From assembly GCF_002112505.1 (NCBI RefSeq), contig NZ_NEHW01000003.1, positions 372,001 to 436,000 on the forward strand: a stretch of 64,000 nt of DNA, written 5' to 3'. The stretch comes from Pseudomonas sp. R28(2017) (GTDB taxonomy: Bacteria; Pseudomonadota; Gammaproteobacteria; Pseudomonadales; Pseudomonadaceae). The notes under the pieces are model-generated. The model was not told where the DNA came from. It made no database searches and was given only the letters and a program-made list of their open reading frames with translations. The stretch's first letter is position 1, and each line of letters opens with the position of its first letter. Both the position numbers and the translations under genes were made by a program. Shown here piece by piece: positions 4,018-47,532 of this stretch.

Positions 4018-4344
4018 ATGGATCTGGTACTTGATCTGCTCGCCACGGTTTCACGCTGGAGCCGCAGCAATCTGTCGGAGATTTCCCTGGCCCTGGTAGG
4101 CTGCCTGCTGGTGCTGTTCGGCACCGATATCAAAGGCTGGGTGGACCAGCGTCTGGGTGCCCTGGCGGGCGCGCTGCGGGTGCCGGTGATGGCTGCCCTG
4201 GTGATGATCGGCAGTGGTGCGGCGCTGATCTATGCCACGCCTTGGGTGGTGAAGGGGTTGGGGCAATTCAACAACTACGCGCTGGCGCCAGTGTTGTTGG
4301 TGGTGCTGGTGTTGATTGGCGTGGTCGCTGATCGTCGCGGGTGA
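4018..4344 (+). CDS. DUF3392 small inner-membrane protein
   Basis: A 108-residue protein with three likely membrane helices (about residues 21-40, 56-76 and 86-104) and little else. It matches the DUF3392 family of uncharacterised gammaproteobacterial membrane proteins. It lies 9 bases after hemW with a GGAT-type ribosome site and is probably the last gene of the metX operon. No enzymatic or transport motif is visible. Confidence 0.8.
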   Translation: MDLVLDLLATVSRWSRSNLSEISLALVGCLLVLFGTDIKGWVDQRLGALAGALRVPVMAALVMIGSGAALIYATPWVVKGLGQFNNYALAPVLLVVLVLIGVVADRRG

Positions 4345-30157: not shown

Positions 30158-30847
30158 ATGAATTGGGAAGTCATCATCAAGTGGCTGCCGCGCCTGGCCC
30201 AGGGTGCGACCCTGACCCTGGAGCTGGTAGCCATCGCCGTGGTCGCCGGGTTGATCCTGGCCATCCCGCTGGGCATCGCCCGCTCCTCGCGCCACTGGTA
30301 CGTGCGCGCCGTGCCGTTCAGTTACATCTTCTTCTTCCGTGGCACGCCACTGCTGGTGCAGCTGTTCCTGGTCTACTACGGCCTGGCACAGTTCGACGCC
30401 GTGCGTTCCAGCTCGTTGTGGCCGTACCTGCGCGATCCATTCTGGTGCACGGTGCTGACCATGACCTTGCACACCGCTGCCTACATCGCCGAGATCCTGC
30501 GCGGTGCGCTGCAGTCGATCCCCAAGGGTGAGATCGAAGCCGCACGGGCGCTGGGCATGTCGCGCGGCAAGGCGCTGTTCTACATCATGCTGCCACGTGC
30601 CGCGCGTATTGGCCTGCCGGCCTACAGCAACGAAGTGATCCTGATGCTCAAGGCCAGTGCCCTGGCCAGTACCGTGACCCTGCTGGAACTGACCGGCATG
30701 GCCCGTACCATCATTGCCCGGACCTACCTGCCGGTGGAGATCTTCTTCGCTGCCGGGGTGTTCTACCTGGTGATCTCGTTCGTGCTGGTGCAAGGCTTCA
30801 AGCTGCTGGAGCGCTGGTTGCGCGTGGACGCCTGCCAGGGCCGCTAA
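30158..30847 (+). CDS. amino-acid ABC transporter permease (HisM-type)
   Basis: A 229-residue permease with five to six helices and the EAA loop GEIEAARALGMSRGKALFYI. It also has the FFFRGTPLLVQLFL segment of the HisM group. It is the last gene of the importer operon. A REP palindrome 14 bases beyond the stop probably protects or ends the transcript. Confidence 0.92.
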   Translation: MNWEVIIKWLPRLAQGATLTLELVAIAVVAGLILAIPLGIARSSRHWYVRAVPFSYIFFFRGTPLLVQLFLVYYGLAQFDAVRSSSLWPYLRDPFWCTVLTMTLHTAAYIAEILRGALQSIPKGEIEAARALGMSRGKALFYIMLPRAARIGLPAYSNEVILMLKASALASTVTLLELTGMARTIIARTYLPVEIFFAAGVFYLVISFVLVQGFKLLERWLRVDACQGR

Positions 30848-30860
30848 ACACCCACTGCCG

Positions 30861-30888
30861 TCTTCGCGGGCTTGCCCGCGAAGAGGCC
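30861..30888. repeat. single REP palindrome after the ABC operon
   Basis: CTTCGCGGGCTTGCCCGCGAAG is a perfect REP hairpin in the short gap between the HisM-type permease and the methyltransferase gene. Confidence 0.75.
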
Positions 30889-30919
30889 TCAAAAACCCTT
30901 CACACACCAAGCCACACCC

Positions 30920-32125
30920 ATGTCCCACTACCTCCACAGCCATCAGCTTCATGACCGCTTCCAGGCCCTCGACCAGTTCCTGACCGAGCACCAGCCGCTG
31001 TGGAAACCCCGGCCCTTCACTGCCCTGCACCTGGACTGGGAGGCCGAGCATCCCGAACTCGCCGCCCACCTGCGCCAATGCACCCTGGCCGATGCCGAAG
31101 CCGACATCGACCCGCAAGGCCTGCCCGCCCCGTTCCCGCAACTGGCCGCGCAAGCCGCGCAGCTGTCGGCCCTGGGCGAGCTCCCCGACACTGGCCTGCC
31201 CGGCGCCGGCCACCGCCTCGACGTCAACGTCCCAGGCCGCAAATGGCAGCAGATAGAAGCCTTCAGCCGCCGCCTGGGCTTCCGCGAAACGACCCGTCAC
31301 TGGCTCGACTGGTGCTCCGGCAAAGGCCACCTCGGCCGCCGCCTGCTGCAGCCAGGCCAGCAGCTGACTTGCCTTGAGTACAACCCCGAGCTGGTCGCCG
31401 CCGGCCAGGCCCTGAGCGACCACCACCACCTGCCCGCGGCCCACATTCACCAGGATGTGATGGCCGCCAGCAGTACCCAGCACCTGAACCACGAGAAAAG
31501 CGTGGTCGCCCTGCACGCCTGCGGCGAACTGCACGTGCACCTGCTGCGCCAGGCCAGCCAGCAAGGCTGCCGCCATCTGGCTGTGGCCCCTTGCTGCTAC
31601 AACCGCATCCCCGGCGAGCACTACCAAGCGTTATCCACAGCCGCGCAGCGCTCGCCGCTGCATCTGAGCATGACCGACCTGGGCCTGCCGCTGAACGAAG
31701 CCGTTACCGCCAGCGCGCGCGTGCGCCATCAGCGCGACTGCTCCATGGCGCGGCGCCTGGGCTTCGACCTGCTGCAGCGTGAGCAGCGCCGGAGCAATGA
31801 ATACCTGTCCACCCCTTCGCTGCCGATCGCCTGGCTGGACAAGCCTTTCGAGCAGTACTGCCGTGAGCTAGCCGACCTGCGCCAGGTCGACTTGAGTGGC
31901 AACCCGGACTGGGCCGCGCTGGAGGCCGCCGGCTGGCGGCGCCTGGCCGAAGTGCGCAACCTCGAACGCCTGCGCAACCTGTTCCGCCGCCCGCTGGAGC
32001 TGTGGCTGGTGCTCGACCGCGCCCTGTTCCTCGAAGAACAAGGCTACGACGTGCGCCTGGGCACTTTTTGCGATTACCCGCTCACCCCTCGCAACCTGCT
32101 GCTGCTCGCGGAACGCACTGATTAG
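30920..32125 (+). CDS. SAM-dependent methyltransferase-like protein
   Basis: A 401-residue protein with a methyltransferase fold. The SAM-binding loop is WCSGKGHLGRRLL (about residue 131), the acidic strand end is TCLEYNPELV, and a conserved APCCYNRIPGEHY segment lies near residue 225. It resembles the Methyltransf_32 group (relatives of eukaryotic METTL25/RRNAD1). The substrate is unknown, possibly RNA. The start at 30920 is chosen for the clean N terminus MSHYLHSHQLHDRF; the ribosome site is weak. Confidence 0.75.
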   Translation: MSHYLHSHQLHDRFQALDQFLTEHQPLWKPRPFTALHLDWEAEHPELAAHLRQCTLADAEADIDPQGLPAPFPQLAAQAAQLSALGELPDTGLPGAGHRLDVNVPGRKWQQIEAFSRRLGFRETTRHWLDWCSGKGHLGRRLLQPGQQLTCLEYNPELVAAGQALSDHHHLPAAHIHQDVMAASSTQHLNHEKSVVALHACGELHVHLLRQASQQGCRHLAVAPCCYNRIPGEHYQALSTAAQRSPLHLSMTDLGLPLNEAVTASARVRHQRDCSMARRLGFDLLQREQRRSNEYLSTPSLPIAWLDKPFEQYCRELADLRQVDLSGNPDWAALEAAGWRRLAEVRNLERLRNLFRRPLELWLVLDRALFLEEQGYDVRLGTFCDYPLTPRNLLLLAERTD

Positions 32126-32417
32126 CCACCCCAAAACCTGTGGATAACTCTGTGAACAAGCTTGTGATGACCTGTTGGATTCAAGCGCTATTTCAACCGT
32201 TCGGCTTATTCCCACCCGCGCCTCAAGCCCAGTAAAAACAGGCCTTTGCGCAAAGACCGGCGGTATGGAGAAGCGGCATGCCTTTCGCGCAAGGCGACAA
32301 TGCCTCTTGTGCATAAACAAAATTTCGATTAGGCAATCGCTCCCACAGAAGTACCCGCAATGGCGACTTCGATAGCCTCCTCTGTGGGAGCGGGCTTGCC
32401 CGCGAATGGCCCTCGAA
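32126..32417. other. intergenic stretch between the methyltransferase and DUF3077 genes
   Basis: No gene is visible. It contains a degenerate REP unit in its last 80 bases. Confidence 0.5.
32338..32413. repeat. REP palindrome with a degenerate inverted partner
   Basis: A full REP (CTGTGGGAGCGGGCTTGCCCGCG, about 32382-32404) faces a half unit CGCTCCCACAGAAG at about 32338. It directly follows the expected stop of the minus-strand DUF3077 gene. Confidence 0.7.
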
Positions 32418-32689
32418 TCAGTGCACCTTATTCTTGCCCAGCTCAATGTCATCATCAGCGCCTTGGCCAGGATCAGTAAATAGTCGGCGGCGCCTAAAAG
32501 CTTGTGGTCGTCCTCCGCGTCCCCCTCACGCACAAGGTGCTTGATATAGCCGAGCAACACCGACACATGCTCATAGGCATGGTCGATCGGGATGCCCGGC
32601 TGCACGCGCAGCAGATCGACCGTTGGGTTACCCGCTTCCAGGAAGGTCTTCGCCCCTGCGGTGACGGTGGTTTCAGCGGCATCACTCAT
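32418..32689 (-). pseudogene. DUF3077-type protein, apparently frameshifted near its end
   Basis: The frame from 32689 (MSDAAETTVTAGAKTFLEAG) reads as a normal DUF3077 relative (PIDHAYEHVSVLLGYIKHLV...AADYLLILAKALM). It then runs past the REP into unrelated sequence instead of stopping. In the adjacent frame the same stretch gives DDIELGKNKVH and a stop at 32418-32420, just before the REP. A single missing base in ATGATGAC at about 32448-32455 explains this. It may be a real mutation or an assembly error. It starts inside the last 8 bases of the upstream DUF3077 gene, so the two are translationally coupled. Confidence 0.65.
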
Positions 32690-32954
32690 GTGCAGGCCCC
32701 TTTTCATCGCTCAAGCTCGCCAGTGCATGCTGGAACAGGATCAATGCCGAATCGGCCGCATAGGCGGCATTGGCCAGCGTATTCAAACCGGGCTCGCCGG
32801 CGTGGAGACGGCAATGTTCGTCAATGGTTTCGGCGACGCCGCGGATAAGCTCGGCGCCGTGGGTGATGGCATCTTCAGGGGAGATGTCGCTGTGGACGGA
32901 GAAGTACGGGGTTTGGATTAGAAGATGGGGTGGATCAGGAACGATCTTTTTCAT
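32682..32954 (-). CDS. DUF3077 domain protein
   Basis: A 90-residue helical protein beginning MKKIVPDPPHLLIQTPYFSV, with the DUF3077 core SPEDAITHGAELIRGVAETI and an AAYAADSALILFQHAL tail. The family is common in multiple copies in pseudomonads and has no known function. AAGGAG lies 9 bases before the ATG. The ATG also overlaps the stop of a 61-codon upstream frame, and the leader is strongly structured. Confidence 0.75.
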   Translation of the reverse strand: MKKIVPDPPHLLIQTPYFSVHSDISPEDAITHGAELIRGVAETIDEHCRLHAGEPGLNTLANAAYAADSALILFQHALASLSDEKGPAHE

Positions 32955-33136
32955 GACAGCAGCTCCTTCAATGGAACCACCACATGGACCTTTCTCACGG
33001 ATTCAGGTGGCAGTCGTACACGGGGTGAGAAAACCGAGGGAGCTACAAAGCTCGGCCAGGCCGAAGCCTGCCCGCGTACGACCGCCATAACGGACCAGCC
33101 GAATAACTCCTTGTCGGGTTTCTCACACCCGGTCAC
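32951..33136 (-). CDS. possible 61-residue leader ORF upstream of DUF3077
   Basis: The minus-strand frame beginning MTGCEKPDKELFGWSV ends in KELLS, and its stop overlaps the DUF3077 ATG as ATGA. Its last codons contain the DUF3077 ribosome site. If translated, it would couple translation to the gene behind it. The same DNA is dense in inverted repeats, so the frame may be a by-product of a conserved RNA rather than a protein. I cannot decide between the two. Confidence 0.35.
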   Translation of the reverse strand: MTGCEKPDKELFGWSVMAVVRGQASAWPSFVAPSVFSPRVRLPPESVRKVHVVVPLKELLS

Positions 33137-33190
33137 CAGGAATTGGCAACCCAGGAACGTTATCCCTGGGCCACTTCCCCGCCAACAGAG
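32988..33190 (-). promoter_or_regulatory. structured leader RNA upstream of the DUF3077 operon
   Basis: Several stems are visible. A long imperfect stem pairs 33009-33024 with 33070-33085 (GTCGTAC/GTACGAC core). Inside it lie GAGCT-ACAA-AGCTC and CAGGC-CGAA-GCCTG. A second domain is closed by ATAACG/CGTTAT (33087-33092 with about 33158-33163) and contains CGGGT/ACCCG. GTGAGAAA at 33025-33032 is complementary to TTTCTCAC both at 32991-32998 and at 33119-33126, so two alternative pairings are possible, one of them close to the ribosome site. Confidence 0.5.
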
Positions 33191-33285
33191 AAGGGTCGAC
33201 TAGCCGCGTAGGATAATTCCCAAATACCTCAATCCTGAAGTATTTGGTTTCAAGTTCAGAAATCCCTCACAAAATCACCACGGTC

Positions 33286-33317
33286 TCTGTGGGAGCGGGT
33301 CCACCCGCGAAGAGGCC
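33286..33317. repeat. single REP-like palindrome
   Basis: CTGTGGGAGCGGGTCCACCCGCG is a REP variant with a TCCA centre, upstream of the small lipoprotein gene. Confidence 0.7.
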
Positions 33318-33435
33318 CGACGGTGTATCATCCGCCCTCCAAATCAGTAAAAAGCTACGTCGCACGCTGCCCGCCAGCCCTGCGACCGTCTGGCGTTGCG
33401 CCAGATTCGACAATGGACTAACGGACTACAGCATC

Positions 33436-33684
33436 GTGACCTACACCAAACCCCTTGCCCTGCTGGCCTTCACCCTGACCCTGGGCGCCTGCACCAACAG
33501 CCCTGCCCCGCACCCTGCCAGCAACCTGGACTGGAACACCCCGGGCATGCAACTGGGCGGCGACAACGGCCTGCCCCTGCGCGTCGAAAGCCCCTGCCGC
33601 AAGCGCGGCTGCGACAACGACAAGCTGTTTTTCAACCCCGGGAAGACCGAGCCAAACGTCAATACCATCCACCGCGGCTGGTAG
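33436..33684 (+). CDS. small lipoprotein
   Basis: An 82-residue exported protein starting at GTG 33436. The signal peptide MTYTKPLALLAFTLTLGAC ends in the lipobox LGAC, giving a lipid-modified Cys at about residue 19. The mature part is short and contains CRKRGCDNDKLFF with two more cysteines. No ATG start fits the signal peptide. It lies about 100 bases upstream of tRNA-Thr. Function is unknown. Confidence 0.7.
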   Translation: MTYTKPLALLAFTLTLGACTNSPAPHPASNLDWNTPGMQLGGDNGLPLRVESPCRKRGCDNDKLFFNPGKTEPNVNTIHRGW

Positions 33685-33782
33685 GAAAATTCTCCTTTCA
33701 GGCCGGTGACTTAGGTCATTTGCGCACAATCGCAAGGAAGTGGTTTACAGGCGCCAACCGATCGTTATAATGACGCCCCATT

Positions 33783-33858
<76 letters not shown>

Positions 33859-33896
33859 TTCAAGGTTCCATAGAAAGCTTTCAAAATCTCTGGAAC

Positions 33897-33928
33897 CCCC
33901 GAAAAACCCGCCTTCTGGCGGGTTTTTT
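33897..33928 (+). terminator. terminator after tRNA-Thr
   Basis: AAAAACCCGCC-TTCT-GGCGGGTTTTTT is a perfect stem with a T-run 40 bases beyond the tRNA. It lies inside the integrated element and replaces the tRNA's original terminator. Confidence 0.9.
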
Positions 33929-33969
33929 CGTTTTGGCGTTCCGTCGGATTCCGAGGGTAGCCAGCGCTA

Positions 33970-34022
33970 ATAAGGGTACTTTTAAGGATACCTACCAATT
34001 CGACATTGGAAAGTACCCTTAT
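33970..34022. promoter_or_regulatory. 13-bp inverted repeat overlapping the integrase start
   Basis: ATAAGGGTACTTT (33970-33982) and AAAGTACCCTTAT (34010-34022) are perfect inverted copies 27 bases apart. The right copy includes the first two bases of the integrase ATG. This could be an operator, an integrase arm site or a leader hairpin that hides the start codon. Confidence 0.55.
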
Positions 34023-35340
34023 GGCTCGCACAACGGCTCCCCTTACCGACAACGCCTGCCGCACTGCAAAGGCTCGCGAACGTGAGTACAAGCTTTTTGA
34101 CGGGGATGGCCTTTACCTGCTCGTGAAGCCCAACGGTCGCAAAGGCTGGCGGCTCAGGTACGTGAAGCCCGATGGTCGCGAGGGCCTGACCTCACTCGGC
34201 AATTACCCGGTGGTCGGGCTGGCTGACGCTCGCCACAAGCGCTTCGAGCTCAAACAGCAGCTCGCCAACGGCATTGACCCCATCCAATCCAAGCAGCAGG
34301 CCAAGGTGCAAGCCGTAATCAATGGCCGTACCTTCGAAAGCGTCGCGCTCGATTGGTATGCCGGGATGGTGCCCAAGTGGGCGCCGGGCCACGCCAAGAC
34401 TGTGCTCAGCCGGTTGAAGACTCACGTATTCCCTTTGCTCGGTGCCAGGGCAATCGTCGAGCTCGATACCCACGACCTCATGCAGCCTCTAGAAGCCGTG
34501 ACGAAACGCGGCACCATCGACGTGGCGCTTAGGATCAAGAACTACCTTCAAAGCATCATGCGCGAAGCCAAACGGCTGCGGCTGATCACCTCGAACCCGG
34601 CTCACGACCTCGACGGCTCGATCAGAGCACCACGGGTTACACATCGACCCGCACTACCCTTATCGCGGCTGCCAGAGCTGCAAGCACGCATCGACGACTA
34701 CAAAGGTCGTCCACTCACACGCCTTACCGTGATGCTGTCGCTGCACGTGTTCGTACGCTCCAGTGAGCTGCGCTTCGCCCGCTGGAACGAGTTCGACCTC
34801 AATCGCGGTATCTGGGAGATCCCCGACACTCGCCCGGCGCTCGACGGCGTACCGTTTTCCACAAGGGGTACGAAAATGGCCGGAGACATTCACGTTGTAC
34901 CCTTATCGCCGCAAGCAGTGGCCTTGCTTGAGCAGATCCACGCGATCACCGGCAAGTTTGACCTGGTGTTCGCGGGAGATGCCAAACCGTGGAAACCGAT
35001 GTCCGAGAACACGGTGAATGCCGCGCTCAGGACGATGGGCTACGACACCAAGGTGGATATCTGCGGCCACGGGTTCCGAGCCATGGCGTGCAGTGCGCTG
35101 GTCGAATCCGGACTTTGGTCAGAGACGGCCATCGAACGGCAGATGAGCCACAAAGAACGCAACAACGTGCGCGCCGCTTATACCCACAAGGCCGAGTTCC
35201 TCGAAGAGCGCCGGATGATCATGACCTGGTGGAGCCGGTTTCTGGAGGCGAACCGCGAGGACCATGTGACGCCACATGAGTTTGCCAAGCAGACGGGCGA
35301 GAACGTCACGCGGCTTCGCAGTGCCAAGAGGACCGAGTAA
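34021..35340 (+). CDS. P4-type tyrosine integrase
   Basis: Site-specific recombinase that inserts the element into tRNA-Thr. The 439-residue protein has the N-terminal DUF4102 arm-binding domain (about 1-90), a SAM-like core-binding domain (about 105-195) and the catalytic domain with R246, H350-x-x-R353, H377 and Tyr387 (AAYTH). All catalytic residues are present. The start at 34021 fits the family opening MARTTAPLTDNACRTAK; five upstream codons are possible. It is read away from the tRNA, as usual for such islands. Confidence 0.95.
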   Translation: MARTTAPLTDNACRTAKAREREYKLFDGDGLYLLVKPNGRKGWRLRYVKPDGREGLTSLGNYPVVGLADARHKRFELKQQLANGIDPIQSKQQAKVQAVINGRTFESVALDWYAGMVPKWAPGHAKTVLSRLKTHVFPLLGARAIVELDTHDLMQPLEAVTKRGTIDVALRIKNYLQSIMREAKRLRLITSNPAHDLDGSIRAPRVTHRPALPLSRLPELQARIDDYKGRPLTRLTVMLSLHVFVRSSELRFARWNEFDLNRGIWEIPDTRPALDGVPFSTRGTKMAGDIHVVPLSPQAVALLEQIHAITGKFDLVFAGDAKPWKPMSENTVNAALRTMGYDTKVDICGHGFRAMACSALVESGLWSETAIERQMSHKERNNVRAAYTHKAEFLEERRMIMTWWSRFLEANREDHVTPHEFAKQTGENVTRLRSAKRTE

Positions 35341-36265
35341 CCCGCCGCACCACCACCTCAACTCGCTGTGAAGTTACCCACAGCACCGCATGAAGCTCCT
35401 CCGCGCGGGTCCTTTCAAACGGGGCTGCAAAGCCGCCCCGTTTGAAAGGACCATACCTAAGAAAAAAACTGCTGGCACAGCTTACGACTGTGGAAAACCA
35501 CTGATGTCCACCGGGGGATATTTTTATCCACAGGCGCTAAATCCCTGATATCGCGCTGCTTGACGAATATTGTCCACAAGCGTAGACCGGGAGTCGCAAG
35601 AGCTGTCGATGACAGCACCCAGGTGACCTGAACCTTAAAGGTCACGCCGCTCTGCGGTGGTTCACCCGCAAGTACGATTCGCGTCCGGCAGCTCGTACGG
35701 TCACTACCCATGTGATGGATGCCAACTCAATATCGTTGCCCCTGCGGCAACCACCCTACCTATCTGCTCAGCAGCAACCTATCCGCTTGGCCATTTCGCG
35801 TGCGCCAACCTGCGCCCGTCTCTTTCACTGGAAAGAGACGGGCGATCCTGACACTGCTGCAGCCCTGATCGCACATGGCTCAGCGGCACTTCCCCTCGTG
35901 ACAATTGGCGTGACAAACGCCGATGTCACCAGCAACAGCCATGCAGATGATGGTGCCGCAGACCAAGGAATGGACTGCACCTGACTGACAGTCAGGCATG
36001 CCCCGGTCATCGCATTGCTGCGTTCACCCGACTCAGGATCTTCAGGCGCTGGTCTCGTCAGCCAGTGCAGCCTCCACCCGCCCACCGGTAACGGTGCTCA
36101 GGAGGCCAGATCATGAGATGCCCTTGCTCCCGGATGTAAGGAGCCGCCAGTCCCGCGTTAGAGGACATCCCCACAGGTCGCAGGGGCCTTGATCCCTGAT
36201 AACACTCAGCATTCTTGGCGGGATGACGTGGGAAGGACGGGAGAGCATAAGAAGAGGTGACCAAT
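35341..36265. other. 925-base non-coding stretch rich in perfect palindromes
   Basis: Holds the 18-bp repeat above, a 14-bp perfect hairpin (35813-35826 with 35831-35844, loop ACTG) and an 8-1-8 palindrome at 35980-35996 (CCTGACTG-A-CAGTCAGG). A 90-codon plus frame from GTG 35712 exists but has no ribosome site I trust and runs through the 14-bp hairpin, so I do not call it a gene. Confidence 0.6.
35408..35452. repeat. perfect 18-bp inverted repeat after the integrase
   Basis: GGTCCTTTCAAACGGGGC and its exact complement flank a 9-base loop (TGCAAAGCC). There is no T-run, so it is not a standard terminator. It starts 67 bases after the integrase stop. Confidence 0.8.
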
Positions 36266-37246
36266 ATGGCATTGGTGGGTAGACGCGATGGCCGCAATTT
36301 CGGCTACGGCAGACAATTGAGCTACGCAGGGCCGCAGGCGCTGAAAGACATGTTTGGCGGTGGCCATTACGGCACGGTCAAAGCGCACGGTGATCGCTGG
36401 CAAGCATTCGTCAAATGGTGTCGCTCCGAACAGGGGCCCGGCATCAATGATGCGCGACAGATTGATCGTAAGGTGTTGGCTAACTACGCGGCGTATCTGC
36501 GCAACATGGTTGGGAGCGGTGACCTCGCCGTCAGTACCGCACAAAACCGGCTATCCAGCGTTAACAGGACCATGGCGGCGCTTCGCGGTGATCAGTACGT
36601 GAAATTGCCCAGTCCGAGCAAGGCGCTGGGTATGCAGCGCACAGGAGTTCGACATTCAGTGCCGCAGGGCCGGGACCGCGAACAGGTTAAGCAGATCGTC
36701 GATGCGCTTTGCAACCAACATGAACTACGGGCCGCCGCGATTGTTTTGTTGGCGCGAGCCACCGGTATGCGCTTGCGTGAGGCCATCTTGGCTGACCTGC
36801 CACGGCTAAGCCGCGAGGCTAACGACCTAGGCAAGATCAACATTCAGGATGGCACCAAAGGTGGCCGCGCTGGCGCCTCGGCGCCACGTTGGATTGCGAT
36901 GGATGACCGTATACGAGAGGCGCTTGATTTGGCACGGCAGGTGTCGCCTGAGGGTAGCCGCAACCTGATTGCGGCACACGAAAGCTACGTGGATCTGCTG
37001 CAAAAAATCATCCGACCGGCACGGGACATCCTGCATATACACAACCTCAAAGGGTTCCATGAGCTACGGGCGGCGTACGCATGTGACCGCTACGAGCAAA
37101 TCACCCAACACCGCGCACCTATCAACGGCGGTAAATGCTACCGGACAGATCAGCACCTTGATCGTGAGGCCCGAAGGCTAATCAGCTATGAGCTAGGGCA
37201 CGGTCGGGTCGATGTAATCGCAGCCTACATCGGTGGGCGGGTATGA
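36266..37246 (+). CDS. second tyrosine recombinase (Integrase_1 type)
   Basis: A 326-residue protein with an N-terminal SAM-like DNA-binding domain and a C-terminal tyrosine recombinase domain. Candidate catalytic residues are Arg169 in GMRLREA, His265-x-x-Arg268 in FHELRAAY, His312 in ELGHGRVD and Tyr321 in AAYIGG near the C terminus. It resembles the integrase-domain proteins found in Pseudomonas islands. The ATG at 36266 is preferred because AAGAGG lies 8 bases before it; GTG 36257 is in frame. Its stop overlaps the next gene (ATGA). Confidence 0.85.
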   Translation: MALVGRRDGRNFGYGRQLSYAGPQALKDMFGGGHYGTVKAHGDRWQAFVKWCRSEQGPGINDARQIDRKVLANYAAYLRNMVGSGDLAVSTAQNRLSSVNRTMAALRGDQYVKLPSPSKALGMQRTGVRHSVPQGRDREQVKQIVDALCNQHELRAAAIVLLARATGMRLREAILADLPRLSREANDLGKINIQDGTKGGRAGASAPRWIAMDDRIREALDLARQVSPEGSRNLIAAHESYVDLLQKIIRPARDILHIHNLKGFHELRAAYACDRYEQITQHRAPINGGKCYRTDQHLDREARRLISYELGHGRVDVIAAYIGGRV

Positions 37247-37518
37247 GTAAGTCATTCGACATGGAGCTGTTCCTGTCTGGAGTACTGACCGGCTCGCACG
37301 CAACTCGGCAACGCCACATACGGCAGGCGAAAATCATCCAGGCTGAGATTGCCGTGCGCTGGCAGCGAGAAACGCCTTGGGTTTGGCAGAGAAAGCATGT
37401 CGCGTGGTTTCTCGGTCATCGGATGAGCCAGCGCAGTGAAGCGACGCGGTATTACTACGTGCTGACGGTTCGGCTACTCGCCCGTCGCCTAGAAAAGTCA
37501 TGGGTTTTTAATCTCTGA
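37243..37518 (+). CDS. small basic protein coupled to the second recombinase
   Basis: A 91-residue, strongly basic and Trp-rich protein (MSKSFDMELFLSGVLTGSHA...). It overlaps the recombinase gene by 4 bases, so its production is coupled. The pattern of short helices with Arg/Gln-rich faces resembles the SAM-like core-binding domain of tyrosine recombinases. It may be a DNA-binding accessory or directionality factor; this is inference. The same small gene accompanies this recombinase type in other Pseudomonas islands as far as I recall. Confidence 0.65.
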   Translation: MSKSFDMELFLSGVLTGSHATRQRHIRQAKIIQAEIAVRWQRETPWVWQRKHVAWFLGHRMSQRSEATRYYYVLTVRLLARRLEKSWVFNL

Positions 37519-37740
37519 TTCGGACCTGATGCTGGTAATAATGAACGGCACCAATCGGTTATCACAGGCCGCTCATAGGCAACCGTCTCCGGCCTGGCGG
37601 CCGGAGACGTACCAAGGCACTACAGGATCGGCATGAACGTGTTTTTTCTCTAAATCAGGAACGCGCTATAGAGCTCGCCAGTGTGCCTCGAACCGCGCCA
37701 CGGCTGCTTGAACAGACCCTAGGTTCAGCCGAAAGTAGAC
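37519..37740. other. non-coding stretch upstream of the retron
   Basis: Contains a perfect 11-bp hairpin at 37584-37609 (CGTCTCCGGCC-TGGC-GGCCGGAGACG). A T-run lies only 30 bases later, so it is at best a weak terminator for the recombinase operon. No gene is visible. Confidence 0.5.
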
Positions 37741-37768
37741 TTGACAAAAGCTCGCATACCAATAATAT
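37741..37768 (+). promoter_or_regulatory. sigma-70 promoter of the retron RNA
   Basis: TTGACA at 37741-37746 is a perfect -35 box. With a 16-base spacer, TAATAT at 37763-37768 serves as -10. Transcription would begin near 37775, just before the first strand of the a1/a2 stem of the retron RNA. Confidence 0.7.
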
Positions 37769-37769
37769 T

Positions 37770-37960
37770 GGTGCCCTCTTTACGCGCTTTAGGAGCTTTC
37801 GAGCTCTAGTCTGGTGTATAGCCGGACTCTAATTTATTGAACGGTATTAGTTGCGACGAAGGCTCGCGTGGGCTTCACTCGTCGCACTCGTGCCTTAGCA
37901 CTCGCACTCCTCGCAAATCCCACGCGAGCCTTCGCCGCTATATCTTTGGTAAAGAGAACC
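37770..37960 (+). ncRNA. retron msr-msd RNA (template and primer for msDNA)
   Basis: Non-coding RNA on which the reverse transcriptase makes msDNA. Region a1 (CTCTTTAC, 37776-37783) pairs with a2 (GTAAAGAG, 37949-37956), extended by GGT/ACC. The msr part shows GAGCT-TTCG-AGCTC (37793-37806), AGTCTGG/CCGGACT (37808-37828) and CTAAT/ATTAG (37829-37850). The candidate branching G lies in TTTAGG at about 37792. The msd part is a 20-bp stem with one mismatch (37853-37872 with 37919-37938) closed by a 46-base loop. Order and architecture match the Ec86/Eco1 class. Exact ends are estimates. Confidence 0.82.
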
Positions 37961-38003
37961 TCCTGGAGACGCAATCAAGTGCCATGGACTAGGGTCGACT
38001 AAC

Positions 38004-38966
38004 GTGACGTTGAAGTACGATGACAAAAGACTCGAGTCACTAGCTCATATTTCTCTTGAAAACTCCCGTGTCGTTCTGACTCATCCAATCCTTTTTCTCT
38101 GCGGTGGCCAAGTAGACGTTAAGTCGGCTGTTCCGACTTCTGTTAGAGGGGCACTTGTTGAGTATTTGCACAAAGCCCGTTGTCATCTTGCAGACAGCAT
38201 TACTCTGGCTGAAGACTTTAAAGACTGGATTCATGATGCTGTTTACAAAGATCTCTTGGCCTTTGAGAGCGACATTGCACACATATCATCCTTGATTGTT
38301 ATAATCCTCGAAAGTCCGGGCGCACTAGCTGAGCTCGGGCTATTTGTTAAAAACAAAGCTCTCAAGAATAAAATACTGGTCTTTGTCAGGCAAGATCATT
38401 ACGAAGAAAGTTCCTTCATTAAGCTCGGGCCATTAAGATACTTGCAAGGCGTAAAGGAAAGCAGCGTCTGCTCCTATCCTTGGGATAACAATGACCTAGC
38501 AGGAAGTCTATCTTCTTCATTAAAAGAGATGAGAGAAGATATCTTAGGCGCCATATCTAATCGAGACGACTCAGAGGCGTTCAACATAGATAATGAAGGG
38601 CACATCGCCTTCGTAATTTATGAAATCATTAAAGTTTTCAGAGCTTTGAAGCTTATGGAGATTGAAGGCTACCTTCGAGCCCTCGACATTAACATTTCAA
38701 GAGACAAACTAAAAAGACTTATATTTCTGCTCGGAAAATTCAACCTGATTAAGAGCTCGAAGCGAGGCCATATCGACTATTACTATGTCGCCCTCGATGT
38801 AGTTATGGTGGAGTTTGCAGGGAAATTTGAACCGACCAAGGTTAAACTTGCGGCACAGCAATATTATGCGACCAATGATAGCGAATCGAGAAGAATGCAT
38901 GTGATTCAGTCTGCCTACGCTATGGCTACTCCCGAGCCGGTCGTCTTGCCAGTGGGGGCGGAGTGA
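38004..38966 (+). CDS. retron effector: nucleoside deoxyribosyltransferase-like protein with C-terminal DNA-binding domain
   Basis: Toxic effector of a type II-A retron. The 320-residue protein starts at GTG 38004 with a weak AGGG site 9 bases upstream. The N-terminal half is a nucleoside-2-deoxyribosyltransferase-like fold with FLCGG (about 31-35) and ESPGALAELGLF (about 103-114), closely parallel to the Ec86 effector (LCGG and ESPGSFTELG). FIKLGPLRYL also has a counterpart there. Residues of about 200-290 look like a winged helix. In Ec86 the msDNA and reverse transcriptase hold the effector inactive until phage attack, after which it destroys a nucleotide pool; the same is inferred here. 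Confidence 0.85.
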   Translation: MTLKYDDKRLESLAHISLENSRVVLTHPILFLCGGQVDVKSAVPTSVRGALVEYLHKARCHLADSITLAEDFKDWIHDAVYKDLLAFESDIAHISSLIVIILESPGALAELGLFVKNKALKNKILVFVRQDHYEESSFIKLGPLRYLQGVKESSVCSYPWDNNDLAGSLSSSLKEMREDILGAISNRDDSEAFNIDNEGHIAFVIYEIIKVFRALKLMEIEGYLRALDINISRDKLKRLIFLLGKFNLIKSSKRGHIDYYYVALDVVMVEFAGKFEPTKVKLAAQQYYATNDSESRRMHVIQSAYAMATPEPVVLPVGAE

Positions 38967-39904
38967 TGCTGATTTTAGAAGAACTGGCAAGCAAGCTATT
39001 AATCAGTACCGCAGAATTAGTAAAGTTTGTTAACACTGCACCCTACCGATATAAGGTGTATTCAATTCCAAAACGGAGTGGTCGAGGACTAAGAGTCATT
39101 GCACAGCCTACTGAAGTGCTAAAAGTAATACAGCGCATGGTTCTCGATAGTTACTTGAAGGACCTTCCGATCCATGATTGCGCTACAGCTTATAGAGATG
39201 GCTTAAGCATCAAGGAAAACGCCGCAGTACATCTGGGTAGCAAATATCTGCTAAAGATGGATTTTTCGGACTTCTTTCCGTCCATAGGACCGAGCGATCT
39301 TATTTCGCACATAAAGAAACATAGAAAAGATATCGCTAGAGAAGATGCTTACGCCGTAAGGAAAGTATTTTTCTGGGCTACAAAGAAAGACCCTGTGCAT
39401 AGACTTAGCATCGGCGCACCATCATCACCTTTCATATCTAACACCTTGATGTACGATTTTGACTGCAAGATTTTCGAAGAGTGTGCTCGTTTAGGTGTCA
39501 AGTACACACGTTATGCGGACGATCTCACATTTACAACTAATGTACGAGGCGTTCTGTTTGAGCTTCCCGATATAGTAACCAAGACTTGTGCCGAGATTGA
39601 ATATCCGACCTTAAGAGTAAACCAGGAAAAAACTGTTTTTTCGTCAAAAGGAAACAACCGCCACGTCACAGGGCTAGTACTAACAAATGACAACAAAATA
39701 TCACTAGGCCGAGAGAAAAAAAGATACTTTAGATCATTGATTCATAGATACTCACTTGGTGGCATGTCTAGTAAAGACATCTATGCACTCAAGGGAAGGC
39801 TGGCATTCGCTAAGCACGTGGAGCCGACATTCTATAATGCTATTGTTCAAAAGTACGGTGCGGAACTAATTAAATCAATCATGGAATACCAGATTTTAAA
39901 ATAG
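38966..39904 (+). CDS. retron reverse transcriptase
   Basis: Synthesises msDNA from the msr-msd RNA. The 312-residue protein has the palm motifs SIPKRSGRGLRVIAQP and KMDFSDFF (first catalytic Asp about 99), SIGAPSSPFISN, and the catalytic YADD (about 183-186). Two retron hallmarks are present: NAxxH as NAAVH (about 85-89), and VTG in RHVTGLVL (about 234-236), which contacts the msr. The ATG at 38966 shares a base with the effector's TGA; a GTG one codon earlier is possible. AT-rich codon use differs from the chromosome. Confidence 0.95.
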   Translation: MLILEELASKLLISTAELVKFVNTAPYRYKVYSIPKRSGRGLRVIAQPTEVLKVIQRMVLDSYLKDLPIHDCATAYRDGLSIKENAAVHLGSKYLLKMDFSDFFPSIGPSDLISHIKKHRKDIAREDAYAVRKVFFWATKKDPVHRLSIGAPSSPFISNTLMYDFDCKIFEECARLGVKYTRYADDLTFTTNVRGVLFELPDIVTKTCAEIEYPTLRVNQEKTVFSSKGNNRHVTGLVLTNDNKISLGREKKRYFRSLIHRYSLGGMSSKDIYALKGRLAFAKHVEPTFYNAIVQKYGAELIKSIMEYQILK

Positions 39905-40311
39905 CTGTTTGCTCTCAGGTCTCGACTCACCTGCATACAGCTCTTAGCCACGACACCAAAGCGCTAGGCCTCACAAGAACAAGCGTCAGTAAATCTGTAT
40001 TGATCTAGGACACGCATCCTTTCTTTTATTCATTACATCCACAACGTATCGATCACTTTAATTTTGGCACTTCCCATAACCTTGCGCCGCAGAAAAGGAG
40101 ACAAATTTATTTTTCGGCGATGATTGACGTGCCATTAAATAAATTTGTCCCCTTTTTCCTTCAGAGCGGATAGCTAACGCCCGAGACTGAATACTCAGCA
40201 CACTAACATTTACGCTTAAAAAGTCAGGACCTTACTGTAGATAGTGATCTAGGTTGTGCTCGCGCACGGAACTAGCTCACTCAACTATTCTCCGCTGCAT
40301 GTAATCCCTGA
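39905..40311. other. intergenic stretch between the retron and the OLD-like gene
   Basis: Lies between convergent genes. The main feature is the long AT-rich inverted repeat at 40093-40156. No gene is visible. Confidence 0.55.
40093..40156. repeat. 20-bp inverted repeat, MITE- or REP-like
   Basis: AAAAGGAGACAAATTTATTT (40093-40112) and AAATAAATTTGTCCCCTTTT (40137-40156) are inverted copies with one mismatch. GGGGACAAATTTATTT-type ends are common near short repeat families in gammaproteobacteria. The T-run after it could also let it act as a terminator for the reverse transcriptase gene. Confidence 0.65.
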
Positions 40312-42006
40312 TCAGTCGTGCCAAATTTCACCCGCAATCTCAGATAAAGTCGGATCAGCAATACCTCTAGTTACCCTACAAAGGTCGATATTCTGTCCAA
40401 CTTGAGCCTGTAGCTTTCCTCTGAGAGAACGCTCTACAATTTTCCCGTGCATGAAGCCGCGCATATTGCCATCAAAGTTTTGCGTGCACTGCCGAGCAAT
40501 AACACCAGCATTTGGCTTGGCGCCACCTCTGTAGGAATCTTGAAGCTGTCGATTGTATATTGTGTTTATGTACTTCTCCAGTATCGCATCTCGTCGTTCA
40601 TTGAGACACTCCTCTATCAACACTGAAACTTGCTGCTGTGTTAGCCGCGGGTATAACTCGGAAATATGCTCCTCATCTACAAAATGACTTTCAGCATCAT
40701 TCCCGACCGAAATAAAAACTTTTATACCTACAGCTTCTAAACCTTCCTTATACTCCAAAACTTCTGCGTCCGTCATATAATCCCGATCGCGATGAACAAC
40801 TACAGTTGTACCTGGAGCATGTTCAACTATAAATGAATTCAACGCCTGCGCGATCTGTATATTCGAGCAACCATTATATGACCAGACTTGATACTCCCCA
40901 GGCAAGAAACCAGAAGCCTCAGCAATAAGATTTATGTAACTTACATCTGCATCTTCAGTAAGCAATATGCAAGGTATCTCGCCATTTCTCAGTTGATCCC
41001 CCTTATCAAGAGCCCCGATTTCTAGCAAAATGCTTCGCTCAAGGTCTTCCGAATCCTCAACCAAAGAACAATTATTTATCCAGTGAATAGTCGCATCATC
41101 TTTAAGCGCATCGAAAAAATGTCGAGAATGCGTAGATATTATAAGTTGACAGCCGGTTTCTTGATGTAGCTCTTTGAGCAAGATCGCTAAAATTCTTTGG
41201 TTATTTGGGTGCAAGTGCGAATCAGGCTCATCCAATATAAGCAGCTTAGGCTTGTACAAATAGTAATAAGCCAGTATTTGAATGGCTTGTAGAATTCCTG
41301 TCCCACACGAATCAATTGGCAGCGACACTTCATTACTAGTAACTCTCGCATTGATATGCTCATCAATATTGGAGTCAAACCTCACGCTTATCTCATAATC
41401 TGGAAATACAGTCTTAAACTTATCCTTAAACGATTGCCATGACTGATTATCCTTAGATAGCAGCAGCAAAATATTTCTAAAGACACTATTCGAGTCTCCT
41501 TTTGCAGCAGCTTTGCGGACAACTGATGGCGGTCTATATTCTTCAAAGGAAGGTATTCCTGCTAGACCAGGAACAATCATTGAATAAGGGCTTTCAATAT
41601 TTTGGAGATGCTCTCCCAACGCTCGACCTTCTAGCGAGGTAGTAATATTTCTATTCCTACCTTTTCGTATAGTAACAGTTGAATTTGTGTTCTCAACAAA
41701 AGTTACTTTAATCGCATGCTCCAATGAAGTCTGAAGCCTTCCGTACGGTGCTAACGCTTCAACGTCCCTCAAAGGTGAGTAAATCAACGATTCACTAGAA
41801 AGTGATGAGGGGCATCTATCTTGAGACCACCGCGCGCCTTGTTGTGCAGTAGTCTGTGCAATAGACACAGAAAATTGGATTGCTTGCTGAATACTGCTCT
41901 TACCCGCATTATTAGATCCAATAAGGAGATTTATACCTCCTAGAGGAATTTCAATATCCGTAATGTTCTTAAATCGCTCAATTTTCACAGAACTAAGCAA
42001 ACCCAT
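40312..42006 (-). CDS. OLD-like AAA ATPase with C-terminal TOPRIM-like domain
   Basis: A 564-residue protein. The ATPase half has Walker A GSNNAGKSS (about 30-38), Walker B KLLILDEPDSHLHP (D259, E260) and the H-loop LIISTHSRHF. The second half has TOPRIM-like acidic motifs, LLTEDADVSYI (E351) and VVHRDRDY (D407, D409), as in overcoming-lysogenisation-defect nucleases. Many such proteins are anti-phage nucleases (for example GajA-type). AAGGAG abuts the ATG at 42006 with no spacing; TTG codon 3 (42000), MLSSVKIERF, would have ideal 6-base spacing. No partner gene is adjacent. AT-rich. Confidence 0.8.
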   Translation of the reverse strand: MGLLSSVKIERFKNITDIEIPLGGINLLIGSNNAGKSSIQQAIQFSVSIAQTTAQQGARWSQDRCPSSLSSESLIYSPLRDVEALAPYGRLQTSLEHAIKVTFVENTNSTVTIRKGRNRNITTSLEGRALGEHLQNIESPYSMIVPGLAGIPSFEEYRPPSVVRKAAAKGDSNSVFRNILLLLSKDNQSWQSFKDKFKTVFPDYEISVRFDSNIDEHINARVTSNEVSLPIDSCGTGILQAIQILAYYYLYKPKLLILDEPDSHLHPNNQRILAILLKELHQETGCQLIISTHSRHFFDALKDDATIHWINNCSLVEDSEDLERSILLEIGALDKGDQLRNGEIPCILLTEDADVSYINLIAEASGFLPGEYQVWSYNGCSNIQIAQALNSFIVEHAPGTTVVVHRDRDYMTDAEVLEYKEGLEAVGIKVFISVGNDAESHFVDEEHISELYPRLTQQQVSVLIEECLNERRDAILEKYINTIYNRQLQDSYRGGAKPNAGVIARQCTQNFDGNMRGFMHGKIVERSLRGKLQAQVGQNIDLCRVTRGIADPTLSEIAGEIWHD

Positions 42007-42563
42007 CTCCTTATTAACATAAAAACATTAGAGATCAAAACTATAAAAGTCATTACCCGAACGATCAAAATCCGTTATGCAACAGAGCAACAATTCATCA
42101 AGCAATGCTTTAGCGCACAATCAATGCCTCCCGACAATGACAATCATGGCCACTGACCGTCCCAGCCAAATTTAACCGGGAACGCCCCTTCAGAAATGAC
42201 AGGCCATGGATAATTATTATTTCTTAACGCAGCCAAAAAACTACCGCAGCCTCAAATATCGTAAGTTACATCGCGACGGTTATGCTCACCACTTGTAACA
42301 GGAAGCTATCATTTTGCCAGCAACACGTCCATCGGTGAGTAGCTACAGCGGGCCGATTGTCACTGCTTAACAGCTCTAGAGGGACTCCCCTATTCGTGAA
42401 ACCACGCGAGATTAGCCATAGCCCAGAACGTTAGAGTGCTTCCCATCTTGCTAAAGTTAGTTATGCATCTTGGACTATCAGACAGAGCCTTAGGGTAGTT
42501 TTAGAGATACTGGCTCATGCGCATTGACTAAAAATCGCTACATATCAAAAACTTACTGAGTTT
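42007..42563. other. distal non-coding end of the integrative element
   Basis: About 560 AT-rich bases between the OLD-like gene and the right attachment site. I see no gene, only short frames. It must contain the promoter of the OLD-like gene; no clear box stands out. Confidence 0.5.
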
Positions 42564-42584
42564 TTCGACTCCTGGTGCCACCAT
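42564..42584 (+). other. attR, degenerate copy of the tRNA-Thr 3' end
   Basis: TTCGACTCCTGGTGCCACCAT matches the tRNA-Thr T-loop, 3' T-stem and acceptor end except for one base change and the loss of GGC before ACCA. It is followed within 15 bases by a terminator, as expected for the original 3' flank of the tRNA gene before integration. Confidence 0.75.
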
Positions 42585-42593
42585 ACGCAGTAC

Positions 42594-42624
42594 TAAAAAG
42601 GCTCACCGAAAGGTGGGCCTTTTT
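42594..42624 (+). terminator. terminator behind attR (original tRNA terminator)
   Basis: AAAAAGGCTCACC-GAAA-GGTGGGCCTTTTTT is a strong stem with a T-run. In the uninserted chromosome it would end the tRNA-Thr transcript. Confidence 0.85.
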
Positions 42625-42871
42625 TGTTTTCAGTGTCGTTTGCACGAGCAAATGCAACACGACAACCATTGACCACGTACACGCAGCGAAATGCAGGCCT
42701 GCTGAGGCCATTCTGGGATGCCAACGACTCCCGTTACTTTGGCTTGCGCATGGAAGACCCATGCGGCGCACATGTGTGAGTCATGGTTACCGATGAAATG
42801 CCAGGTGAAGAGGCTGTGCTGTAGCTGCCATAGCTTGTTCATAGCCTGACGCTGGACGCCTCCCTGCCCTA

Positions 42872-42899
42872 ACAAAAGGGGCCGCGTTGCGGCCCCGAT
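42872..42899 (-). terminator. terminator of the TonB receptor gene
   Basis: On the minus strand GGGGCCGC-AAC-GCGGCCCC is followed by TTTTGTT, directly after the receptor stop codon. Confidence 0.85.
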
Positions 42900-42902
42900 T
42901 GA

Positions 42903-45200
42903 TCAGAACGCAGTACTGACCGTCAGCGACATGTTCCGCGGATCGCCGTAGATCGCCCCGGCATAGAACCCGTACTGGGTGTAGTAGTGCTTGTCGAACA
43001 GGTTGTCGACATTGAGGCTCACCGAGGTGTCGTCGGTCAGCTGGTACTTGGCCATGGCGTTCCAGATCGCATAACCGGACCAGTTCACGTCGGTCGCCCC
43101 TGCACTCACGCCGTTCACCGGCTGCCCCGCGGGGCTGGAGATGGCGCGGATGTTGGTTTGTGCCTTCACCCCGGCGCCGAGGGTCAGGCGGTCCAGCGGG
43201 CCGGACAGGCGATAGGTGGTCGAGGCCTTGAACAGGTGCGACGGGTCGCTGCGCCCATCGCTGTCGACGCGACGGAAGTGCAGGTAGGTATAACCGGCAT
43301 AGAGGTTCCAGTTTGGCGTCAGGGCGCCGGCGATTTCCAGGTCGATACCGTCGGTTTCCTGGCCGGTGCCGGCCTTGTAGGCATCACCGCCAGTCGGCGT
43401 GGTCAGGCCGTTATCAAGCACTGCCTTGTTCTGCTGCTTGGTGCGGAAGTACGCCGCCGAGGCGTTCAGGCGCCCGTCCAGCCACTCGCCCTTGATACCG
43501 GTCTCGTAGCTCTGGCCACGAATCGGCTCGACCTTGGTACCGCTTTCGGTCTCGGCCGTCTGCGGGTTGAAGATGTCGGTGTAGCTGGCGTACAGCGAGT
43601 AGGTGTCGTTGAGGTCGTATACCGCACCCAGGTACGGGGTGACGATGCCGTTGTTCTGCTGGTTGCTGCGCACACCGGCCACGCTGTTGGTGGTTGCCGA
43701 ATAATCGGTGGTGCGCACGCCGACGATCACCGACAGCGGGTCGGTGATGCTCAGCCGGGTGGCGGCATACATGCCCTGCAAGCGAGTGGTGGTCTTGCTG
43801 TGGCGGCCGGTGCGCGTGGCGATCATGTCGTAGTCGCTGTCCACGCCGTTGTGCCAGTCGGTGAGCGGGAAGCCGTTGTTGGCGCGGAACTGGCAGCCCA
43901 CCGAGGGTGCGCTGACGCGGTCGTCGCTGACCATGGTGCAGCTGTATTCCGGCGACCAGGCCACGGTACGGCTGTCGTTGTAGCCGACCATCGCCTGGTG
44001 GGTGCGGCCGAACAGCTGGAACGGGCCAGACAGGTCGATCTGCGCAGACTGCTGGGTGGTGTCGCTGGAACTGTGCAGGCCGTTGAGCACCGCGCCGCTG
44101 CCATCCTGGTCCCAGTAGCCGCCATAGCTGCCACGGCCAGCCGAGTTGACCTTGGCCAGGCCACGGTGGTTGAGCACTTCGGCAGTGCTCTGGGCAGCCT
44201 TCAGGTCCAGGGTCCAGTCGTTGTCGAAGCGGTGCTCCAGCGAGCCGAAGGTGGTGCGGGTGGTGTATTCGCCGAAGCTCCAGCTCGGCACCACGTTGGT
44301 GCTGCGCGGCAGGTCGGTCTTGCTGCCGTCCTTGTACCAGATCGGGATGTTGGCGCCCCAACCGCCACCGACCACCTTGTTGTATTCGTACTGGTAGCCG
44401 GCGCCAATCGTGGTGGCATCGTCGATGTCGAACGCGAAGTTGGCCAAGGCTGCGCGTGAGCGTTCGGACTGGTTGTCGCGGAACGAGTTGGCGTCGCCCT
44501 GGGTCATCACGAAGCGCGAACGCAGGCGGCCGTCTTCGGACAGCGGCAGGTTGAGGTCGGCGCCCAGGCGGCGTTTGTCCCAGCTGCCATAGGTGGCGTA
44601 GGCGCTGCCGCCGAAGGTTCTGGTCGGTGCCTTGCGGATCAGGTTGACGGTGGCCGATGGGTCTCCGGTGCCCCCCAGCAGGCCGTTGGCGCCGCGGACG
44701 ATGTCGATGCGCTCGTACAGGTCCATGTTCAGCGCGTTGCCGCCACCGCTGAAGTCGGAACCGCCCTGGAATTGCAGGCCGTCGACCTTCCAGTTGCTGA
44801 TCGAGTAGCCGCGGGCACGGAAGTCGGTGCGCCCTCCCACTTCGGACTTGGTGGCGCTCACGCCTGGCGTGGTGTCCAGCGCCTGCTCGATGGAGTGCAC
44901 ATCGCGGTCATCCATCTGCTGGCGGGTGATGGTGGTCACCGACTGCGGCGTCTGCCGCGGGGTCAGCTTCAGGCCGGTGGAACTGCGGGTGCTCTCCACC
45001 GTGTAGCCAAGCTGGCCGGTTTCATCTGCGGACACTAGCGCACTGTCCTCGATCTGCGTGGCATCCAGCTCCAGGGGCTGGCGTTCGGCAGCCAAGGCGC
45101 TGCCACTGATGGCGACGGCAATGAACAAGGCAAGCGGGTGCAGGCGGCTGCCGCCCCGGACAACTGGAGTGAAGTCGGTCATGGCGCTCTTGTGATTCAT
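42903..45200 (-). CDS. TonB-dependent ferric-siderophore receptor (FhuE/FpvA-like, no STN domain)
   Basis: Outer-membrane gated channel for a ferric siderophore, 765 residues. A signal peptide ends at about residue 38 (SGSALAAE). There follow a TonB-box-like LGYTVESTRSSTGL region, a plug domain (TPRQTPQSVTTITRQQM at about 80-96, then GVSATKSEVGGRTDFRARGY), and a 22-strand barrel ending in Phe (LTVSTAF). The N-terminal signalling domain found in FpvA/FecA is absent, so it should not signal to an anti-sigma factor. It is divergent from a two-component pair that may control it. Confidence 0.9.
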   Translation of the reverse strand: MNHKSAMTDFTPVVRGGSRLHPLALFIAVAISGSALAAERQPLELDATQIEDSALVSADETGQLGYTVESTRSSTGLKLTPRQTPQSVTTITRQQMDDRDVHSIEQALDTTPGVSATKSEVGGRTDFRARGYSISNWKVDGLQFQGGSDFSGGGNALNMDLYERIDIVRGANGLLGGTGDPSATVNLIRKAPTRTFGGSAYATYGSWDKRRLGADLNLPLSEDGRLRSRFVMTQGDANSFRDNQSERSRAALANFAFDIDDATTIGAGYQYEYNKVVGGGWGANIPIWYKDGSKTDLPRSTNVVPSWSFGEYTTRTTFGSLEHRFDNDWTLDLKAAQSTAEVLNHRGLAKVNSAGRGSYGGYWDQDGSGAVLNGLHSSSDTTQQSAQIDLSGPFQLFGRTHQAMVGYNDSRTVAWSPEYSCTMVSDDRVSAPSVGCQFRANNGFPLTDWHNGVDSDYDMIATRTGRHSKTTTRLQGMYAATRLSITDPLSVIVGVRTTDYSATTNSVAGVRSNQQNNGIVTPYLGAVYDLNDTYSLYASYTDIFNPQTAETESGTKVEPIRGQSYETGIKGEWLDGRLNASAAYFRTKQQNKAVLDNGLTTPTGGDAYKAGTGQETDGIDLEIAGALTPNWNLYAGYTYLHFRRVDSDGRSDPSHLFKASTTYRLSGPLDRLTLGAGVKAQTNIRAISSPAGQPVNGVSAGATDVNWSGYAIWNAMAKYQLTDDTSVSLNVDNLFDKHYYTQYGFYAGAIYGDPRNMSLTVSTAF

Positions 45201-45339
45201 TTGGGAAGGCTTCGTATTCGCAGATGATTTTTTGTTACGATTCTAGGGATCCGCCCCCTGGGCTCCATACCCGGCTTGTACGGGGATGTAATTGAACGTA
45301 ACGAGCGCTGCCGGCCCTCGCCCAACAGGTGTTTTCCCG

Positions 45340-46059: not shown

Positions 46060-46060
46060 G

Positions 46061-47428: not shown

Positions 47429-47532
47429 GCCAGCCCCCCTCGTTCGGGTAATAGTCTTTTACCAAAACCCCAGGTTTTCCCGCCCCGGGGTTTGCCTATC
47501 CTAGGCCGCGTCATCCAACCTGCGATGGACCC

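Follow-up and report, generated by a model that had tools for sequence, protein, structure and literature searches.

Upstream of two retron genes in Pseudomonas sp. R28(2017) lies a long inverted repeat, and the locus raises the question of whether this repeat belongs to the msr-msd RNA of a retron, where the DNA made from it would branch off and how long it would be, and which of the known retrons it resembles most. The window analyzed here is a stretch of 64,000 nucleotides (contig NZ_NEHW01000003.1, positions 372,001 to 436,000), and all coordinates are those of the window unless stated otherwise (Table 1). Our answer, of which we are highly confident, is a type II-A (St85/RcaT-family) retron with its msr-msd RNA at 37776-37956 that would act by the mechanism proposed below. 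Gene content, RNA fold, covariation and the family membership of both proteins were determined in this analysis.

Table 1. Retron features and surrounding island in the window
Feature	Coordinates	Strand	Basis or remark
Island left end (tRNA-Thr 3' end)	33834-33858	+	tRNA at 33783-33858
Island tyrosine integrase	34006-35340	+	Pfam Arm-DNA-bind_3, Phage_int_M, Phage_integrase
Second integrase-like gene in the island	36257-37246		
Sigma-70-type promoter, TTGACA-16-TAATAT	37741-37768	+	-10 ends 7 bases 5' of a1
msr-msd RNA	37776-37956	+	Fold, covariation, retron genes just downstream
a1 arm	37776-37783	+	Pairs with a2; fold; both-sided changes in 6 of 8 pairs
Inferred branching guanosine (2'-5' link to msDNA)	37784	+	G directly after a1
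msr hairpin 1 (UUCG loop)	37792-37807	+	Stem 37792-37797/37802-37807; both-sided changes in 5 of 6 pairs
msr hairpin 2 (conserved GUC..GG..GCC.GAC core)	37808-37828	+	Stem 37808-37815/37821-37828
Possible short third stem at conserved UUAUUGA motif, doubtful	37829-37850	+	Arms 37829-37832/37847-37850
msd template (predicted)	37843-37948	+	Ends carried over from Ec86 msDNA
msd stem, 5' arm	37853-37872	+	Fold; helices 5 and 6
msd stem, 3' arm	37919-37938	+	Fold; helices 5 and 6
a2 arm	37949-37956	+	8 of 8 standard pairs with a1
Effector, NDT-like ribosyltransferase with C-terminal part (RcaT/St85 family), 320 aa	38004-38966	+	NCBIfam, PADLOC, fold
Retron reverse transcriptase, 313 aa, YADD	38963-39904	+	NCBIfam, PADLOC and PDB matches
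AAA ATPase (AAA_15/AAA_21 kind)	40312-42006	-	Convergent with the retron, same island
Island right end: tRNA-Thr 3' end repeated imperfectly (3 bases shorter), then chromosomal terminator	42564-42585	+	

Fold of the RNA and covariation of its stems

The window RNA folds with a minimum free energy of -74.5 kcal/mol (z = -4.30), a stability reached by none of 200 shuffles. The fold recovers the a1/a2 pairing exactly where a preliminary description, made by eye, had placed it, and it reproduces the 20-bp msd stem given there, in which 19 of the 20 pairs are standard and the single exception is an A-C mismatch at 37856/37935. At the position of this mismatch, a standard pair is found in 22 of 27 aligned rows and A-C in the remaining 5. 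The sigma-70 promoter that had been read just before a1 is likewise present; the promoter scan found two overlapping sites, against 0.3 expected, with 10 of 12 matches to the consensus. The -10 element of the best-scoring site (taken over ~62 bases before a1) ends 5 to 9 bases before a1 in 25 of the 27 rows, a count made without a shuffle control; the two rows lacking such a site are L008 and L009.

Relatives of the RNA were aligned with the help of a covariance model (R1) built from six close RNAs (alignment A3). Of the 28 sources to which the model was applied, 27 yielded the RNA at full length, the six training rows included; the sole miss is the Ec86 locus (L033), where nothing was found. 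When 21 RNAs were aligned by MAFFT alone (A2), the msd arms were misplaced, and the pair counts were therefore taken from an alignment fitted to the model (A5), which consequently leans towards the structure. Slid partners, shuffles and single-sequence folds served as controls for this bias, and 20 of the 27 rows of A5 are neither among the six training rows nor identical to one of them. Left out as repeats were L001 and L022 (the window's own genome), L023 (the coordinates of L002), L025 (L014), L028 (L019) and L032 (L020); L019, L026, L027 and L030, whose a1 or a2 differs from that of the other rows, are all included. Loci L034 to L045 were added later, and of these only L039 was used further.

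Over the 26 distinct sequences, 93.4% of the cells are paired, compared to 36.0 to 42.6% if the partners are slid by 1 to 3 columns. Compensatory changes on both sides occur in 32 of the 45 pairs, and the observed value was reached by none of 500 shuffles on any of five covariation measures. A lack of compensatory changes in both of these stems, msd and a1/a2, at homologous loci had been named beforehand as the outcome that would speak against the RNA; what we observed is pairing in 100% of the a1/a2 cells, with changes on both sides in 6 of 8 pairs, and such changes in 18 of 19 pairs of the msd stem (2 of 3 and 16 of 16 in its two helices). Furthermore, 18 upstream regions that were folded singly form long msd hairpins of their own.

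The msr part is less uniform. The preliminary description had counted three msr hairpins, of which hairpins 1 and 2 are seen in the fold. Hairpin 2 is largely invariant across the rows, with changes on both sides in one of its eight pairs, and its pair U37812-G37824 is formed in the window only, with standard pairing absent from this position in the other 25 of the 26 distinct rows. The third stem (helix 4) is paired in 83.2% of the cells and has changes on both sides in two of four pairs, but it is missing from the RNAalifold consensus. Chemical mapping of Eco1, as described in PMC8989520, spoke against a stem at the termination point. A third msr hairpin of the window RNA is, thus, weakly supported.

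Branch point and length of the predicted msDNA

The most likely branching nucleotide is G37784, directly 3' of a1, as judged from the aligned sequences: a G follows a1 immediately in all 27 rows. In the Ec86 RNA (L033), the G after CCCTTA, which we take to be the branch G of Ec86, occupies the same place. Originally, the motif TTTAGG had been put forward as a candidate for the branch site. The same retron branching at G37792 or G37793 within this motif would have eight single-stranded bases between the a1/a2 helix and the branch, and an argument for such an arrangement comes from Rfam. RF00170 (msr) aligns over its full model length at 37784-37845, with 40.5 bits and, therefore, below its gathering score of 52, and cmscan sets the consensus UUAGCG of the model on the TTTAGG of the window and not on the bases after a1. 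The motif is also shared by L002, L013, L006, L008 and L009. However, these five and the window are the only 6 of 27 rows that have it, as opposed to 27 of 27 with a G after a1, and in L003, L024 and L026 it is this G, adjoining a1, on which the Rfam alignment itself sets the consensus G. In L014 it falls two bases further on, still outside the TTTGGG of that RNA, and in L019 it lies elsewhere. Moreover, G37793 is paired in the covarying hairpin 1, and the pair that contains G37792 shows variation at just one of its two positions. We consider a branch within TTTAGG very unlikely.

At the gathering threshold, Rfam gives no retron match in the window, and msr appears only in E-value mode. Of 10 relatives scanned, 5 have an msr match at an E value of up to 0.01, L003 being the only one above the gathering score (73.5 bits); at the same E value, no msr match was obtained in L011, L016, L027, L030 and Ec86 (L033). 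STnc400 (RF02058) has no match in the window. In L003, at 3892-4020 of that locus, STnc400 (96.8 bits) spans a2 together with the msd half before it and the hairpin that follows, and the msr half of the same retron RNA is RF00170; the two families, it appears, each describe one half of a single retron RNA.

The msDNA is predicted to be ~106 nt long and complementary to the msd template, with its 5' end near 37948 and its 3' end near 37843. The rule behind this length is taken from what we assume to be the ends of the Ec86 msDNA, and the 85 that it returns for Ec86 is, therefore, no independent test. The same rule gives rough lengths of 76 to 99 for the other 26 rows, and the msd loop of the window is 7 bases longer than that of L002, L013 and L024. 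The 85 to 90 bases expected earlier fit the hairpin 37853-37938 alone (86 bases), whereas the template from the presumed start to the presumed stop comprises 106, though 85 to 90 would be usual for the relatives. In sum, three details of the preliminary description probably need correcting, namely, the candidate branch site, the msDNA length and the third hairpin.

Effector and reverse transcriptase

Both proteins encoded downstream of the RNA belong to the retron St85 family. The effector matches NF038232 (retron St85 family effector) with 261.1 bits (cut-off, 100) and the PADLOC model NDT_II-A with an E value of 1.2e-83. The reverse transcriptase (RT) matches NF038233 (retron St85 family RT) with 358.2 bits (cut-off, 235), and PADLOC ranks RT_II-A first (1.3e-126), followed by RT_I-A (1.3e-116). 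An St85-family effector and an RT as adjoining genes bear out the identity of the RNA as a retron msr-msd RNA. A second in-frame start of the RT gene, the ATG at 38966, overlaps the stop of the effector gene.

Pfam revealed no domain in the effector at an E value of up to 0.001, with DUF3427 weak at 0.097. The similarity to the Ec86 effector is detectable by sequence (2.5e-9) and also by structure: an AlphaFold model of moderate confidence (mean pLDDT, 73.3) matches the Ec86/Eco1 effector (8qbk) with an E value of 2.7e-10 and a TM score of ~0.5. E110 of the window effector, invariant in 8 of 8 aligned sequences, aligns with E106 of Eco1, the position that is altered in 8qbl, an entry named "inactive effector".

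When the window RT is compared with the PDB, the six best matches include the RTs of Ec78 and Ec83. In an RT tree of 28 rows, midpoint-rooted with the root on the long Ec86 branch, the window RT groups with L002 and L013 (99/98), then with L024 (97/92) and L014 (100/98). The RTs of four Septu retrons cluster as a single branch (98/94) nested within the rows that bear NDT-like effectors, which fits the statement on II-A1 and I-A in PMC12548924 that Septu replaced NDT. The window retron may, accordingly, belong to subtype II-A1, the NDT-bearing relatives of type I-A.

Could the locus be a decayed remnant, whose RNA still folds but from which msDNA is no longer made? Both genes in the window are full length and have conserved active-site residues, and the promoter and the stems are intact. 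Decay may well occur in the family, since the RT match in L013 (2348-2440 of that locus) is split over two frames and the effector match in L026 holds one TGA, but neither observation concerns the window directly. A remnant is, in our judgment, most improbable.

Occurrence of the RNA and genomic setting

A search of 398 genomes of the genus with R1 found the RNA in 11, and a retron RT adjoins it in 11 of 11; in nine of them, the RT was found by the RT search and in G560 and G669 by separate searches. Genomes of the same genus with a retron outside these 11 are G065, G430, G527, G567 and G611. The RT search (E value up to 1e-40) yielded 11 loci in the contig collection and hits in 10 of 298 genomes of the genus, and the effector search (E value up to 1e-20) hits in 11 of 398 genomes of the family. 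The NDT-bearing homologs whose loci were read have the order RNA-effector-RT. In the light of this distribution, there is next to no chance that the inverted repeat is a mere transcription terminator or an operator for the adjoining genes, as might be concluded from a terminator scan that flags hairpin 2 (1 found, 0.5 expected) and from the long GC-rich hairpin, given helices that covary and follow one another as in a retron RNA, arms that differ in sequence between lineages with the pairing kept, and the RT next to the RNA in every one of the 11 genomes.

An integrative island of 8.7 kb that occupies 33834-42585, next to tRNA-Thr(TGT), carries the retron as cargo. Taken alone, the 16-bp tRNA repeat at 42564 has an E value of 0.28; it was accepted as the island end because an empty site is seen in the relatives L048 and L049, where the left flank with tRNA-Thr is contiguous with the terminator of the right flank. 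The G+C content is 0.498 in the island and 0.436 in the retron, compared to 0.64 in both flanks within the window. A comparison of window positions 30001-48000 with 10.9 kb of L002 (Pseudomonas sp. DTU12.3) revealed that only 37699-39903 is common to both; the retron would, therefore, appear to be a mobile cassette. There was no DNA match to the retron in the phage collection, and 14 plasmid records have a relative of the RT (E value up to 1e-40), every one with less than 60% identity. A literature search, with most subscription papers outside its reach, found no paper on this locus.

The AAA ATPase that shares the island shows weak similarity to many PtuA/GajA/OLD-type defence models and is possibly a second defence gene. 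Two further RNAs were recognized by Rfam in the neighborhood: a radC RNA (RF01754, 67.6 bits) at 35589-35722, just 3' of the island integrase, and a C4 antisense RNA (RF01695, 69.4 bits) at 33003-33092 on the minus strand, just outside the island.

The msd stem

It is imaginable that the msd stem is a replaceable bait, its 20-bp sequence being swapped between lineages and its pairing kept, along with the RT, the effector and the a1-msr core. We regard this as rather unlikely. If it were true, each lineage would watch a different phage enzyme that modifies or cuts DNA, and the window retron would sense a phage function other than the Dcm-like methylase reported for Ec86. A site for a methylase sensor in the stem of the window was looked for and rejected, with neither GATC nor CCWGG present there. 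GATC occurs in the stem arms of 8 of the 27 rows, all of which belong to a second Pseudomonadaceae lineage. In L003, L006, L008 and L009, it lies slightly outside the columns that entered the count.

Each msd arm of L016 to L021, L027 and L029 to L031, which represent this second lineage, has a 7-bp inverted repeat of its own (CCGCAGA..TCTGCGG). In six distinct arms, at most 0.45% of the shuffles were as good (17 arms tested; one lineage only), and 8 of these 10 stems carry GATC. A 7-bp internal inverted repeat was also sought in the arm of the window and is absent from it; the repeat found there has 4 bp and was matched by 31% of the shuffles.

Proposed mechanism

In our model, the RNA would be transcribed from its own promoter and would fold with a1 and a2 paired. 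The RT would then prime at the 2'-OH of G37784 and copy the msd from ~37948 back to ~37843. Removal of the template by host RNase H, a role ascribed to RNase H1 in PMC8989520, would leave a branched RNA-DNA hybrid, with an msDNA of ~106 nt that contains a hairpin of 19 to 20 bp. RT and msDNA together may bind the ribosyltransferase-like effector and keep it inactive. Once the msDNA has been modified or destroyed by a phage product, the effector would be freed or activated, and it would then attack NAD and halt the cell before the phage multiplies.

The model is applied to the window retron because of its relationship to RcaT-Sen2 and Ec86. RT-msDNA neutralizes RcaT-Sen2, which is set free when phage triggers act on the msDNA (PMC11676413), and the Ec86 effector hydrolyzes NAD(P)+ once the msDNA is methylated (PMC12948488; PMC13158370). 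By analogy to these systems, we infer the priming G, the length of the DNA, the sequestration of the effector, the hydrolysis of NAD and the phage trigger, and the window retron would, as a whole, have an anti-phage role.

Comparison with known retrons

The closest likeness is to Retron-Sen2 (St85, RcaT) and type II-A, a likeness established via family models: both proteins score above the NCBIfam cut-offs, and the effector is NDT-like. The RNA has the same elements: besides a1/a2 and the hairpins of the msr, there is a long stem in the msd. The predicted DNA of ~106 nt differs from the 85 nt of St85, a length that is presumably implied by the name. The window retron adds a Pseudomonas member to the RcaT/St85 retrons, one whose RNA structure has been tested and for which a branch point is proposed and an msDNA predicted; it opens no question beyond those already posed by existing retron work.

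Eco1 (Ec86) shares with the window retron the fold of the effector, the catalytic Glu, the G directly after a1 and the overall plan of the RNA. However, its RT is 29% identical to the window RT, and the genes are arranged as effector-RNA-RT in Ec86 but the window has RNA-effector-RT. With this other gene order, and with R1 having no match in the Ec86 RNA, the locus is not an Ec86-type operon.

The type I-A retron-Septu systems (Ec78/Ec83-like; L004, L010, L012 and L039) have RTs related to that of the window, and their RNA is found by R1. In these four loci, the RNA lies directly before the RT gene and PtuA follows. Their effectors are PtuA, plus PtuB where tested (L004 and L012), whereas that of the window is NDT-like, which sets it apart from type I-A as defined by PtuA/PtuB; the strand of the RT has no open reading frame of at least 60 aa from the RT gene up to the AAA ATPase gene (40312-42006), which is convergent with it. 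One RNA plan, hence, serves two effectors, NDT-like and Septu.
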